Position numbers and translations under genes: made by a program
Part shown: one piece after another, positions 26,157 through 41,792 of the stretch
Position numbering within the stretch: the stretch's first letter is position 1
Layout of the letters: each line of letters begins with the position of its first letter
The notes under the pieces: generated by a model
The model's input: only the letters and a program-made list of their open reading frames with translations
Told to the model about the DNA's origin: nothing
The model's database searches: none
Source of the DNA: Marinobacter persicus
Lineage (GTDB): Bacteria; Pseudomonadota; Gammaproteobacteria; Pseudomonadales; Oleiphilaceae
Direction of reading: 5' to 3'
NCBI RefSeq assembly: GCF_002934325.1
Contig: NZ_PTIV01000006.1
Span: forward strand, 62,001 to 126,000
Length of the DNA: 64,000 bases

Positions 26157-27029
26157 ATGCATAAGCACGCGTTGCCCCAGGCTGGCACCGACACCTTTAA
26201 TGATCAGATACGGATCGTACTGGTGGAAACCTCCCACTCCGGCAACATCGGCGCAGTGGCTCGCGCCATGAAGAACATGGGGCTGGCCAATCTCTGGCTT
26301 GTTAACCCGGTCTCTTTCCCGGATGAAGCCTCCTATGCGCGTGCGTCGGGTGCTGCGGACGTGCTGGACCGGGCCCAGGTAGTAGGCTCACTGGAAGAGG
26401 CGCTGGCTGACTGCGCTCTGGTTATGGGCACCAGTGCTCGAGGCCGGAAAGTGCCTTGGCCGGTTATGGCGCCGCCGCAGGCAGCGGCCACGGCGGCACA
26501 GTACAGCACAGAGGGACAGGTGGCGCTTGTGTTCGGTCGGGAAAATAATGGCTTGTCCAACGACGAATTGCAGCGTTGTCATTACCACATCCATATTCCG
26601 TCCAATCCGGATTACAGCTCGCTGAACCTGTCGATGGCGGTGCAGGTGCTGTGCTACGAATTGCGGATGCATTATCTGCGAAGCCTTGAAGAGAGCGAAT
26701 CCAGCCCTTACCTTGAAGCCATGGTAAGCCCCGGCGATAGTGGTTGGGATGTACCTCCGGCAAATGTGCGCGAGGTGGAGGGCTTCTTTGGCCATCTGGA
26801 GCAGGTTTTGCGGCAGGTCGAGTTCCATCGTCGTGACAATCCGCGCCAGTTGATGACCCGGCTGAGGCGCCTGTTTCAAAGGGCTCACCTGGATCAGATG
26901 GAAATCAATATCCTGCGGGGTATTCTGACCTCGGTACAGAAAGCCGTCGGTGGGCCGCAGGCTGACACCCAAGACAAATCCACTGTGGCCCAGTCCACAG
27001 ATGAAGGCCAGGAAAAAGACAATGCTTGA
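26157..27029 (+). CDS. trmJ: tRNA (cytidine/uridine-32-2'-O)-methyltransferase TrmJ
   Basis: 290 residues. SPOUT-family enzyme that 2'-O-methylates position 32 of t[37 protein letters not shown] is the typical N-terminal block; [48 protein letters not shown] is the SAM-binding trefoil knot. The C-terminal helical part ([21 protein letters not shown]...[22 protein letters not shown]) is conserved in TrmJ. Overlaps cysE by eight bases. The ribosome binding site is weak. Confidence 0.95.
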
Positions 27030-27828
27030 GCGTTTACGGGAAGACATTAACAGCGTTTTTCATCGGGACCCGGCAGCCCGTAATACCTTTGAGGTGCTGA
27101 CCAACTATCCGGGCTTGCACGCCCTGTTGTTTCACCGGTTCGCTCACTGGTTATGGAATCTGGGGCTGAAGTGGCTGGCCAGAACCATTTCCACGCTGGC
27201 GCGCTGGCTGACCGGCATTGAGATTCATCCGGGTGCGACCATTGGTCGTCGTTTCTTTATCGACCACGGTATGGGCGTGGTGATTGGTGAAACCACGGTC
27301 ATTGGCGATGATGTCACGCTCTACCAGGGCGTTACTCTGGGGGGCACCAGCTGGAACAAAGGTAAGCGTCATCCAACCATTGGTAATGGCGTTGTTGTAG
27401 GCGCTGGTGCCAAAATCCTTGGGCCATTTGAAGTAGGTGAGGGCGCCAAGGTGGGGTCCAACTCTGTGGTTACCAAAGCGGTGCCAGCGGGTGCCACCGT
27501 GGTGGGTATTCCCGGCCGTGCCATTGTCAAGAAACGTCCGTCAGAGGATGAGGCTCGGCGCAAGGAAATGGAAAAGCGCATGGGCTTCGATGCCTATGGT
27601 GTTACCGAGGAAATGCCAGACCCGGTGGCGCGTTCCATGCGGGCATTGCTGGATCATATGCACGCCGTGGACGATCGCATTGAGAACATGTGCCAGGCGC
27701 TGCGCAAGGTGAACAGCGAGTATCAGAACGGTGATTTGCCGCCGCTGCAGGACGAGGCATTCGATTGCGTTCGCGATGAAAGCGGTAGCGATGACAGTGA
27801 GCCGTCCAAGGAACAGCCCAAGGGCTGA
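27022..27828 (+). CDS. cysE: Serine O-acetyltransferase CysE
   Basis: 268 residues. Makes O-acetylserine, the precursor of cysteine. [45 protein letters not shown] leads into left-handed beta-helix hexapeptide repeats ([44 protein letters not shown]). His in IDHGMG and Asp in FHRDPAA are the expected catalytic residues. It has the short N-terminal form plus a charged C-terminal tail of about 90 residues. The neighbouring iscRS genes use cysteine as sulfur source. The start at 27022 lies within the trmJ end. Confidence 0.95.
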
Positions 27829-27829
27829 A

Positions 27830-27861
27830 TACTTGACTGTTTTGGTAGGTCAATTCATACT
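27830..27861 (+). promoter_or_regulatory. iscR promoter with IscR-type operator
   Basis: TTGACT (27833-27838) and CATACT (27856-27861) with a 17-base spacer form a sigma-70 promoter. ATACTTGACTG starting at 27830 fits the left half of the type 1 IscR site (ATASYYGACTR) exactly, and GTCAA further right gives partial symmetry. Autorepression by [2Fe-2S]-IscR would be expected. Confidence 0.6.
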
Positions 27862-27905: not shown

Positions 27906-28394
27906 ATGAAGCTGACCACAAAAGGCCGTTATGCGGTGACCGCGATGCTTGACCTGGCCCTTCATGGTGCTGAAGGGCCGGTGAGTCTCGCAGATATTTC
28001 ATCGCGCCAGGAAATTTCCCTTTCCTATCTTGAGCAACTTTTTTCCCGTTTGCGCCGCCAACACCTGGTTGTCAGTGTCCGTGGGCCCGGTGGGGGCTAT
28101 CGGCTTAGCCGCTCAGCCGACGAAGTATTCATCGCGGAAGTGGTGGATGCCGTCAGCGAATCGCTGGATACCACGCGCTGTGGTAATAAGGGGGATTGCC
28201 AGAATGGTGAGAAGTGTTTGACTCATCATCTCTGGTCGGATCTCAGTGATCGTATTCACAACTTTCTGAGCGAAATCAGCCTTGGTGATTTGATGCGCAA
28301 GCGTGAAATCCAGCATGTGGCTGAGCGGCAGAATCACAAGCAGTCGGAGGCGATCAACACCCGCCGGCTGACCGACCAGGCGTCAGCCTTGTAA
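27906..28394 (+). CDS. iscR: Fe-S cluster-responsive regulator IscR
   Basis: 162 residues, the standard length. Rrf2-family winged-helix repressor sensing [2Fe-2S] supply. [21 protein letters not shown] opens the HTH (about residues 1-65; recognition region [14 protein letters not shown]). The cluster ligands are in [20 protein letters not shown]: three cysteines with the IscR spacing plus the following His. Thirty bases before iscS. An IscR-like half-site lies in its own promoter. Confidence 0.96.
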
Positions 28395-28423
28395 CCTAAC
28401 CTATATCTCTACTGACAGACATC

Positions 28424-29572
28424 ATGAAGAAGCCCGTCTATCTGGATTACGCGGCCACCACGCCCGTTGACCCTCTCGTTGCCGACGAAATGATGAAGTA
28501 TCTGACTCTGGACGGAGTGTTCGGCAACCCCGCTTCAAGAACTCACGGCTATGGCTGGCAGGCGGAGGCGGCGGTCGAGTCCGCCCGTCGTCAGGTGGCT
28601 GACCTGATACACGCTGATCCCCGGGAAATTGTCTGGACCTCCGGTGCCACCGAGTCGGACAACCTTGCGATCAAAGGCGTGGCCTTGAGGACTCCTGGTT
28701 CGCACATTGTTACCTCCACCATCGAGCACAAGGCAGTGGTGGATACCTGTCACTGGTTGGAAGAAAAAGGGGTGGAGGTTACCTGGCTGGAGCCGGAGCC
28801 TGATGGTCGAGTACGGCCGTCGGCGGTTTTTGAGGCGTTGCGAGACAACACGGTGCTGGTCAGCCTTATGCTGGTCAATAACGAGCTGGGTTGCGTGACG
28901 GATATTGCAGCGATCGGTGAAATGCTGCGGGAGCGCGGCGTACTGTTGCATGTGGATGCAGCTCAGGCGGTGGGTAAGATGCCGGTTGATGTGAATACCC
29001 TCAAGGTAGATCTGCTGTCCCTTTCCGCTCACAAGCTATATGGACCCAAAGGCGTGGGGGCACTGTATGTGCGGCGTGCACCGGAAGTCCGTCTGGAGGC
29101 CCAGATTCACGGGGGCGGCCATGAGAGGGGGATGCGGTCTGGAACACTGCCTACGCACCAGGTCGCTGGCATGGGGAAGGCGTTTCAGTTAGCCGGTGAC
29201 CAGCTTGAAGAAGAAATGGGGCGTTTGCGCCAGTTGCGGGAGCGGTTCCTGAAAGGTCTGCAGTCCCTGGAAGGGGTGCACTTCAACGGTAGTCGGGAAC
29301 ATTGCGTGCCCGGCATTGTCAATTTGTCTTTTGAGGGTGTCGAAGCTGAGTCCCTCATGCTTGGTCTCCGGCATCTGGCCGTATCGTCCGGGTCAGCCTG
29401 TGCGTCGGCAGCGACCGAACCTTCTTATGTCCTGCGTGGCATTGGCCTCAGCGATGAGCTGGCGCATCGTGCGCTTCGCTTCTCCCTGGGTCGTTTTACC
29501 ACTGCTGAAGAGGTGGATTTTGCGTGTGAGCAGGTCATCAGCGTAGTACAGAGGCTTCGCTCGCTACGGTAG
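28424..29572 (+). CDS. iscS: Cysteine desulfurase IscS, C-terminal tail missing
   Basis: 382 residues; PLP enzyme that takes sulfur from cysteine for Fe-S clusters and tRNA thiolation. Closely follows E. coli IscS from [15 protein letters not shown], with PLP lysine 204 in [10 protein letters not shown] and active-site Cys326 in SSGSACASA. It stops at VVQRLRSLR, where E. coli IscS continues about 20 residues with the tail that contacts IscU. No iscU, iscA, hscB, hscA, fdx or iscX follows: ndk begins 68 bp later. Activity is predicted intact, but the scaffold partner must be different or encoded elsewhere. Confidence 0.93.
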
Positions 29573-29640
29573 GCAGTTGTAACCTTACCGCGTATAATCC
29601 CCCTTCGGATTTTCTAACACCCATTAATTGGAGCAATACC

Positions 29641-30069
29641 ATGGCAAACGAGCGCACGCTCTCCATTATCAAACCCGATGCTGTCGCCAAAAACGTAATT
29701 GGCGAAATCCTGAGCCGTTTTGAAAAAGCCGACCTGAACATCGTCGCTGCCAAAATGATGCACCTGACTCAGGAGCAGGCTGAAGGTTTTTACGCCGAGC
29801 ACAAGGAACGCCCGTTCTTTAACGACCTGGTAGCGTTCATGACCTCCGGCCCAGTTGTGGTTCAGGTTCTGGAAGGTGAAGGTGCCATCCTGAAAAACCG
29901 TGACCTGATGGGTGCCACCAACCCGAAAGAAGCCGAAGCTGGCACCATCCGTGCTGACTTTGCTTCCACCATCGACGCGAACGCCGTTCACGGTTCTGAT
30001 TCCGCCGAATCTGCCGAGCGCGAAATCGCTTATTTCTTCAACGACAGCGAAATCTGCCCGCGCGGCTAA
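29641..30069 (+). CDS. ndk: Nucleoside diphosphate kinase
   Basis: 142 residues, the standard length. Balances NTP and dNTP pools. [21 protein letters not shown] is the N-terminal signature and [20 protein letters not shown] contains the catalytic His in the NxxHGSDS motif (about residue 117). GGAG lies ten bases before the ATG. A TATAAT at 29593-29598 suggests a separate promoter, although no -35 element stands out. Confidence 0.97.
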
Positions 30070-30132: not shown

Positions 30133-31245
30133 ATGACTGCCCCTGCCGAAAAAACCAACTTCCTGGGGATGCCCAAAGCCAAGCTTGAGGCGTTTTTCGA
30201 GGAAATCGGCGAGAAGCGCTTTCGCGCCCAGCAGATCCTTCAGTGGATCCACCAGCGAGGCGTCGATGACTTCGATCAAATGACCAATATGAGCAAGGCC
30301 CTGCGGGAAAAGCTCAAGCAGGTCGCTGAAATCCGCGGCCCGGAGGTGATCTACGATGAAACCTCCAAAGACGGGACCCGCAAATGGGTCATGCGCATGG
30401 ACAATGGCAACAGCGTTGAAACCGTGCTGATTCCCGATGGCGAGCGGGGTACGCTATGCGTGTCCTCCCAGATCGGCTGTACCCTGGATTGCACCTTTTG
30501 CTCAACTGGCAAGCGTGGATTTAATCGCAACCTGACGGCGGCCGAAATCATTGGCCAGGTATGGGTGGCCCGCAAGGCGTTCATGCCGTTCGAGCCAGGC
30601 CCGGACCGGCCCATCACCAACGTGGTGATGATGGGCATGGGCGAGCCGCTGATGAACTTCGATAACGTGGTGGATGCCATGAACCTGATGATGGAGGACC
30701 TGGCTTACGGTATCTCCAAGCGTCGGGTGACGGTCAGTACCTCGGGGGTTGTGCCGGCGCTGGATCGCCTGAGTGATGTTACCGATGTGTCACTGGCCAT
30801 CTCTCTCCATGCGCCCAATGATGAGCTCCGTAACCAATTGGTACCGCTGAATAAAAAGTACCCGATTGCGGAGTTGTTGGCAGCCACCAAGCGGTATATG
30901 TCCCGCTTGCCGGATAAGCGCAAGGCGACCATTGAATACACCGTCATTGAAGGTGTGAATGACCAGCCGGAACACGCGCGGGAGCTTGCGGTGCTGCTTA
31001 GGGACCTGCCCTGCAAAATCAACCTGATTCCCTTCAACCCGTTCCCGGAAAGCAATTTCAAGCGCCCGAGCATGAATGCCACCCGCCGCTTCCAGAAGGT
31101 AATGAATGAGGCTGGCTACGTGACCACCATCCGGACTACCCGGGGCGACGATATTGATGCAGCTTGTGGCCAGCTTGTGGGGCGCGTTGAGGACCGCACG
31201 CGAAGAAGTCAGCGACATATTTCTGTGCAACAGGTTGCGCCTTGA
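30133..31245 (+). CDS. rlmN: 23S rRNA A2503/tRNA A37 methyltransferase RlmN
   Basis: 370 residues. Radical-SAM enzyme that methylates C2 of adenine in 23S rRNA and some tRNAs. The [4Fe-4S] motif [11 protein letters not shown] (CxxxCxxC) is at about residues 116-126; [15 protein letters not shown] is the conserved SAM-contact block. The catalytic cysteine near the C terminus is in [10 protein letters not shown], the other in the [14 protein letters not shown] region. Needs an Fe-S cluster, as does IspG nearby. Thirty residues after its catalytic cysteine it ends, 55 bp before pilW. Confidence 0.96.
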
Positions 31246-41497: not shown

Positions 41498-41535
41498 GAG
41501 ATTAATCAAGGTTAGTAAGAGCAGGAGAAACTGTT

Positions 41536-41664
41536 ATGTATACAGACGTCGTAGTGATCGCCGGTATTGGAACCGTTGTATTGATGCTGGGCTTTTTTGT
41601 GGGAGTTGGCATCTTTGTCATGAAAGATCAAAAACACCAGCATGGGAAAGCACCCAAGAAGTGA
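41536..41664 (+). CDS. ccoM: CcoM-like small membrane protein (cbb3 oxidase subunit)
   Basis: 42-residue protein with one transmembrane helix: MYTDVVVIAGIGTVVLMLG then FFVGVGIFVMKDQKHQ and a basic tail. Length, the acidic residue at position 4, the VVIAG start of the helix and the K-D after it closely resemble, from memory, the small CcoM subunit that stabilises cbb3-type cytochrome c oxidase in Pseudomonas stutzeri. GCAGGAG lies eight bases before the ATG. The perfect ANR box upstream fits genes of this high-affinity oxidase. The ccoNOPQ genes are not in the window, so it stands alone. Confidence 0.72.
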   Translation: MYTDVVVIAGIGTVVLMLGFFVGVGIFVMKDQKHQHGKAPKK

Positions 41665-41716
41665 TCGACGTGGAGGGCAGCGACACTGGGTGTGCTTGCT
41701 GCCTTGCTTTGAAAAT

Positions 41717-41792
41717 TGGCGTCCCCTAGGGGGTTCGAACCCCTGTTGCCGCCGTGAAAGGGCGGAGTCCTAGGCCACTAGACGAAGGGGAC
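41717..41792 (-). tRNA. tRNA-Glu (anticodon TTC)
   Basis: 76 bases, nearly identical to E. coli tRNA-Glu: starts GTCCCCTTCGTCTAG, anticodon stem-loop CCGCCCTTTCACGGCGG with TTC, T arm AGGGGTTCGAACCCC, and encoded CCA. The acceptor stem GTCCCCT/AGGGGAC is perfect. Confidence 0.97.

Follow-up and report, generated by a model that had tools for sequence, protein, structure and literature searches.

A tail-less IscS beside iscR in Marinobacter, and the loss of the IscS C-terminal tail along with IscU

The iscR-iscS locus and its cysteine desulfurase

The window, that is, the whole stretch of 64,000 nucleotides of Marinobacter persicus DNA that was analysed, carries iscR and iscS followed directly by ndk (Table 1). 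An earlier note on this DNA had described an isc locus reduced to iscR-iscS, with ndk 68 bp further on, and the open reading frames and profile matches bear this out. No gene, and hence no HscB, Fdx or IscX, is present among the window's open reading frames in the iscS-ndk gap, and the junction is contiguous. With regard to further profiles, iscR matches NF008110 at 224 bits, below the cut-off of 275, and iscS matches TIGR02006 at 574.8 bits, below the cut-off of 643.2, the latter profile being matched only to position 381 of 402. The nearest named loci, those of seven Marinobacter with 72% to 78% identity, are all of the iscR-iscS-ndk type and share the same junction (7/7), the gap measuring 68 bp in all but one, where it is 110 bp. 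The trmJ flank recurs beside the isc slot in many relatives compared for gene order, and the rlmN-like gene on the right is followed by pilW-, rodZ- and ispG-like genes. Elsewhere in the window, a match to the PhrS sRNA family (RF01673, 63.7 bits, cut-off 37) lies at 41500-41701 (+) and adjoins a tRNA at 41720-41792 (-).

Table 1. Features of the iscR-iscS locus and its flanks, in window coordinates
Feature	Position	Strand	Observation
trmJ	26157..27029	+	syntenic left flank of the isc slot; NF011694, 302.3 bits (cut-off 280)
cysE	26992..27828	+	syntenic left flank; TIGR01172, 258.2 bits (cut-off 210.65)
weak type-1-like IscR box	27829..27853	+	20/25 positions; before iscR, inside a promoter-like TTGACT-17-CATACT
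iscR	27906..28394	+	TIGR02010, 209.6 bits (cut-off 207.55)
tail-less iscS	28424..29572	+	NF010611, 589.5 bits (cut-off 548)
iscS-ndk gap	29573..29640		68 bp; in relatives the site of iscUA-hscBA-fdx-iscX, in some of a suf operon
ndk	29641..30069	+	syntenic right flank; NF001908, 225 bits (cut-off 155)
rlmN-like gene	30133..31245	+	next right flank; open reading frame used as synteny reference

The window IscS has 382 residues, of which 1-381 align to 1-383 of the 404 residues of 1p3w, which we take to be E. coli IscS. The alignment agrees with the earlier note in that the protein ends at QRLRSLR, some 20 residues earlier than E. coli IscS. It has features of an IscS-type enzyme, namely, a match to NF010611 over the cut-off (that to TIGR02006 being below it), the PLP lysine and the catalytic Cys; in E. 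coli numbering, H104, K206 and C328 are retained. The C-terminal IscU-docking helix is absent from the window protein and from all seven named Marinobacter, six of which have an IscS of 382 residues and one, M. bryozoorum, an IscS of 390 residues with an unrelated end. E. coli IscS without residues 376-404 was reported to lose IscU binding (PMC2854127 / PMC3750173), and Table 3 of PMC2854127 gives the deletion as 374-404 and the IscU binding as 'low'. In our alignment, the chains of mitochondrial cysteine desulfurases carry the same tail as tailed IscS, which makes loss the likely direction and suggests that the tail is ancestral.

ISC core, SUF operon and IscR in Marinobacter

The genome (99.97% complete, in 94 contigs) yielded no IscU-family protein and no HscA over the cut-off (best match 629.7 bits against 708.55), as the earlier note had expected. 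The genus was sampled with 37 Marinobacter genomes, 36 of which are at least 84% complete and one 62%, five of them being single-contig. HscA over the cut-off was found in 0/37, as was frataxin (CyaY), which is also missing from the nine IscU-less genomes of the order described below and present in 5 of the 12 IscU-bearing ones. The IscU family (PF01592) was matched in one genus genome only, G015. This match was rejected as a remnant of ISC, the protein being a 324-aa NifU adjoining nifS, nifV and nifN in a nif cluster. Relatives of the same genus with the full operon would have spoken against the reading of the earlier note, and no genus member with IscU was found among the 37. To conclude that ISC is present on the strength of iscR or iscS would be an error across Marinobacter.

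The earlier note had predicted recourse to SUF or to another scaffold, and SUF is indeed represented by a sufB-C-D-S-A-T-E operon located elsewhere in the genome (G000:C1:31375-37810), apart from iscS. Its SufB, SufC, SufD, SufS and SufT exceed a profile cut-off, and SufA and SufE have their best matches to those families, under the equivalog cut-offs. SufB exceeds the cut-off in 35 of the 37 genus genomes, the two others being 87% and 62% complete, and TusA was found in all 58 genomes searched. The genus members G004 and G026 each give a pair of matches for SufB and another for SufD, corresponding to two suf-type loci.

The window IscR retains C92, C98, C104, H107 and E43; by analogy with E. 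coli IscR, we assume the first four to be the cluster ligands and E43 to have the same meaning as there. Boxes were scored against the type-1 IscR consensus of E. coli. Scored in this way, the E. coli iscR promoter reaches 24/25 and the window iscR promoter 20/25, and no strict type-1 box (at most three mismatches) occurs in the 64-kb window. The promoter-like element before iscR has TTGAC and CATACT in 8/8 aligned Marinobacter, the sixth base being T in 7/8. A 25-bp IscR-type box with two mismatches to the consensus lies 80 bp 5' of the sufB start (0.00 expected by shuffling; 0/200 shuffles reach its score in L094). A putative box before sufB is present in all 21 Marinobacter examined of the 37, with 22 to 24 of 25 positions, as compared with at most 20/25 in 200 random pieces of the window used as controls. 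No regulator gene was seen beside the suf operon among the open reading frames of that region. Since the box at sufB is conserved, the iscR of the window plausibly controls suf from a distance.

Tail and partner surfaces in relation to IscU

For Pseudomonadales, 21 further families were represented by a single genome each, and IscU was found in 12 of these genomes and not in nine. SufB exceeds the cut-off in 9/9 IscU-less genomes and, among the 12 with IscU, only in G040. The IscS alignment extends to residue 404 of the Pseudomonas query in 12/12 genomes with IscU and ends at 380 to 394 in 9/9 without. The Pseudomonas-type relatives (L186-L188, from G040, G055 and G037) have trmJ-cysE-iscR-iscS, then iscU-iscA-hscB-hscA-fdx-iscX, then ndk-rlmN, that is, the core genes in the same slot as the earlier note had given for Pseudomonas. 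Nothing occupies the iscS-ndk slot in Marinobacter, G039, G044 and G057, the iscR of G039 adjoining sufB and being absent from the isc slot. The slot is occupied by sufBCDSATE in G053 (iscR-iscS-suf-ndk) and G045 (iscS-iscR-suf-ndk); iscR-iscS leads directly into suf in G041, G042 and G056, and the order in Marinomonas is suf, then iscS-ndk. Judging from these gene orders, in Pseudomonadales either the isc core was swapped in place for suf or suf came as a cassette. As sufBCDSATE fills the slot in several relatives, the Marinobacter core may likewise have been swapped for suf, which would have relocated later, instead of being plainly deleted. The block loss proposed in the earlier note is supported, with IscU and (at the cut-off) HscA missing; the absence extends over the genus and other families of the order and is not a local deletion, and a swap for suf is possible. 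In L184 (G036, contamination 6), the end of iscS and ndk appear frameshifted and sufB is in pieces, perhaps through sequencing errors.

The class sample consisted of 140 genomes, each of a different family, of which 93 have an IscS match at E 1e-90 or better, the 47 without such a match being left out of the tables. With IscU counted as present at E 1e-39 or better, IscS is full length in 62/62 genomes with strong IscU and in 1/31 without, many of the genomes scored IscU-less holding a divergent IscU/SufU-like protein. The lone exception, G159, has no IscU and a 23-residue tail unlike the usual one. G192 was scored IscU-less despite the threshold, its only strong match being a 303-aa frame of NifU size, G101 was scored IscU-present with an IscU interrupted by an insert, and G227 (match at 9.3e-7) was scored without; the IscS of G207 lies in two pieces on two contigs.

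In the order of Rouxiella, 136 of 148 genomes have IscS at 1e-150, and the 12 without a match were excluded. IscS is full length in 124 of the 125 with IscU (including G265, a broken gene), the exception being a 0.3-Mb genome (G234) with IscU and a damaged tail. Among the 11 without strong IscU, nine have a short IscS, and those of G286 and G300 nearly reach the end but are damaged. In the IscU-less loci, iscR-iscS is followed by pepB in G307, G304, G286, Rouxiella badensis and a Sodalis, and by ndk in G300 and G227. The tail is almost whole without IscU in G300 (W401 replaced) and in Sodalis (L057; L386 and the end changed), cut short in G286 and G304, and gone in G307 and Rouxiella. Rouxiella gave no IscU-family match, and the single match in Sodalis lies in a NifU-sized frame of 288 aa. 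After removal of 13 repeat loci, the complete set of eight tail landmarks is present in 130 of the 136 IscS accompanied by IscU and in none of the 70 lacking it; among L021-L093, 70/73 loci were labelled for IscU by an iscU gene next to iscS. The counts in the class, in the order of Rouxiella and in Pseudomonadales thus uphold the proposal of the earlier note that the IscU-docking tail was lost along with IscU.

These large genome counts are not independent events, since only five independent pairs could be drawn from the trees, all of which are unrooted. A tree built with care from the IscS core of 60 chosen rows, with the tail columns omitted, requires the IscU state to change five or more times on supported branches and gives five independent pairs, with tail damage the same way in all (sign test, p = 0.0625, the best value that five pairs can give). 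A larger, quick tree of 126 rows, from which rows more than 93% identical, repeat loci and the long-branched L149-L161 had been dropped, gives four pairs, on average 3.9 of them the same way, and a first tree of 89 chosen rows gives three. As read from these trees and alignments, tail loss is paired with IscU loss in independent lineages of the order of Rouxiella, with differing stages of decay. In the same sample, L212, L214 and L215 (G241, G316 and G331) have the order iscR-iscS-sufBCDSATE-ndk, and their IscS fall near the Pseudomonadales IscU-less set on weakly supported branches; a cassette transfer is possible for this arrangement.

Beyond the tail, we compared the partner footprints of IscS given in Shi et al. 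2010 (PMC2854127) and Yan et al. 2013 (PMC3750173). In 16 Marinobacter IscS, the catalytic residues are invariant, and of the TusA patch W45, R55, D65, R220 and R237 are kept in 16/16; D52 is Glu in 16/16, as in 12/12 tailed relatives of the order, and E49 is Ala in 15/16. The E49 Ala mutant of E. coli IscS is listed as failing to bind TusA (PMC2854127, Table 3). W45 is kept in only 5/23 of the deeper, class-wide tail-less set, where the TusA residues are poorly retained, so that retention of the patch holds for Pseudomonadales only. The Marinobacter proteins are changed at F89 and R223 (16/16), R112 (15/16), and R116 and L333 (14/16), positions retained in 94, 93, 93, 90 and 94, respectively, of 94 tailed IscS. 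Likewise, 136, 136 and 135 of the 136 IscS with IscU retain L333, F89 and R112, respectively, against 19, 23 and 15 of 70 without, C328 and K206 being invariant in both sets. R112, which is contacted in the ferredoxin model (PMC2854127 / PMC3750173), is altered in five of eight IscU-less IscS of the order of Rouxiella (L065, L209, L211, L057 and L216). Enrichment of changes in the IscU patch is weak in Marinobacter (3/10 changed against 12/134, p = 0.07). Of 16 footprint tests, with p uncorrected, only those of the CyaY/IscX/Fdx patch fall below 0.05, with 2/3 positions in other Pseudomonadales (p = 0.008) and 1/3 in the recent cases of the order of Rouxiella (p = 0.02).

Origin and role of the tail-less IscS

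Taken as a whole, the explanation that we consider probable is that an old isc operon lost its core and that the locus is the surviving front part. Clusters would be made by SUF, with SufS-SufE feeding SufBCD; cluster-loaded IscR from the iscRS locus would repress suf in trans and iscRS in cis; and, with IscU gone, there would be no selection on the clasping C-terminal helix, so that the tail decayed. The arginines used by ferredoxin and frataxin would have drifted too after IscU loss. With its active site kept, IscS would give persulfide sulfur to acceptors outside ISC, the likeliest being TusA for 2-thiouridine in tRNA. The tail-less enzyme would thus serve other sulfur uses, probably tRNA thiolation, as the earlier note had proposed; the Ala at E49 in 15/16 Marinobacter speaks against this.

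An ISC core that exists unseen, through an assembly gap or an overlooked divergent IscU, could be invoked for a genome in 94 contigs, but was rejected as extremely improbable given the completeness of the genome, the contiguous iscS-ndk junction and the genus-wide absence, 37 genomes, five of them single-contig, having yielded only a NifU with a control IscU search that matched 12 of 14 known genomes. It is also possible, if rather doubtful, that tail-less IscS is an old separate lineage, perhaps spread as an iscR-iscS-suf cassette replacing isc, which Marinobacter inherited tail-less, with no decay in its own line. The Pseudomonadales IscU-less set does fall outside the tailed clade in the 126-row and 60-row trees, and the IscS of G241, G316 and G331 group with it, and not with their own sampled order, albeit on weak branches. 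However, in the 89-row tree the set is mostly nested in its order (at 96*; G045 and G050 outside), the trmJ-cysE and ndk-rlmN flanks match those of isc-bearing relatives, G349, G304 and G286 have lost the tail locally beside tailed close relatives, and G307 with Rouxiella, as well as G300, have likewise lost or damaged it locally, within a tailed set.

Alternatively, IscS might still feed Fe-S assembly by giving sulfur directly to SufBCD/SufE or another scaffold, as a second SUF desulfurase. This we consider unlikely: several relatives do carry iscS linked to sufBCDSATE, a single isc-suf operon of Rhodobacter encodes both IscS and SufS (PMC6956336), and M. tuberculosis IscS was tied to cluster building in vitro (PMC10848736), but the suf operon of the genome has its own SufS and SufE-type protein, and iscS is not adjacent to it.

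A broader reading, which we favour only slightly, concerns IscS at large. After IscU loss, the tail would be shed predictably and repeatedly and the ferredoxin and frataxin contacts would drift, while catalysis and, in Pseudomonadales, most of the TusA patch stay; the tail would thus record whether, and how recently, a lineage gave up ISC, the natural replicates would map which IscS surfaces serve which partner, and in some lineages suf would have replaced the isc core under the old iscR. IscS acts as a hub whose many partners share one surface, and lineages that lose some partners and keep others show, without mutagenesis, the residues that each partner pays for. They also point to a route for changing Fe-S machinery, in which the sensor IscR and the sulfur source IscS are kept and the scaffold is exchanged.

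As compared with known systems, IscS of the full isc operons of E. coli and Pseudomonas is about 62% identical to that of Marinobacter, with the same catalytic residues and, for the Pseudomonas type, the same slot, whereas Marinobacter lacks the IscU helix and has L333, F89 and the ferredoxin/frataxin arginines changed. The alignment of chain 4isy, which we take to be M. tuberculosis IscS, with tailed Pseudomonas IscS ends at residue 381, and M. tuberculosis IscS is a far relative (247 bits). Like Marinobacter, M. tuberculosis has its ISC operon truncated to iscS and a complete SUF, but the accessible part of that report describes no iscR-iscS pair (PMC10848736). The isc-suf operon of Alphaproteobacteria (Rhodobacter, PMC6956336; Caulobacter, PMC11475020) likewise has iscR and iscS, no isc core, SUF and regulation by IscR, while in Marinobacter iscR-iscS is separate from suf and is bounded by the genes that flank the isc slot of Gammaproteobacteria. 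Leftover IscS in SUF bacteria is therefore already known. SUF also replaces ISC in the SUF-only pseudomonads Halopseudomonas and P. phragmitis, described in a 2024 survey of Pseudomonadales that placed Marinobacter mixed with its outgroup (PMC11559095); the available passages of the survey contain no discussion of the leftover iscR-iscS or of the IscS tail. The repeated tail decay may be new to the literature: loss of the IscS tail tracking IscU loss appears in none of the titles and abstracts searched, among which were few subscription papers.

Tail-less does not mean without any IscU-like partner, as a divergent IscU-like gene (25% to 42% identity to E. coli IscU) lies directly 3' of a tail-less iscS in L132, L133, L134, L136, L138, L139, L147, L148, L149, L154 and L155; such pairs may dock differently from E. 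coli IscS-IscU. In L133, L135, L149, L151, L152 and L161, two IscS-family genes are neighbours. The first has only 36% to 41% identity to its best IscS reference, and the pair precedes either a single A-type carrier gene or an IscU-like gene together with a carrier. Finally, the IscU gene of G101 (L267:1619-3040, +) bears a large in-frame insert, from the Cys after FKTYG to HN just before CGSAIASS, which matches the Hint domain weakly (PF07591, E 5e-5, under the cut-off). The insert looks like an intein, after which the next residue would be what we presume to be the sulfur-accepting Cys63 of IscU, and the adjoining IscS has a full tail.
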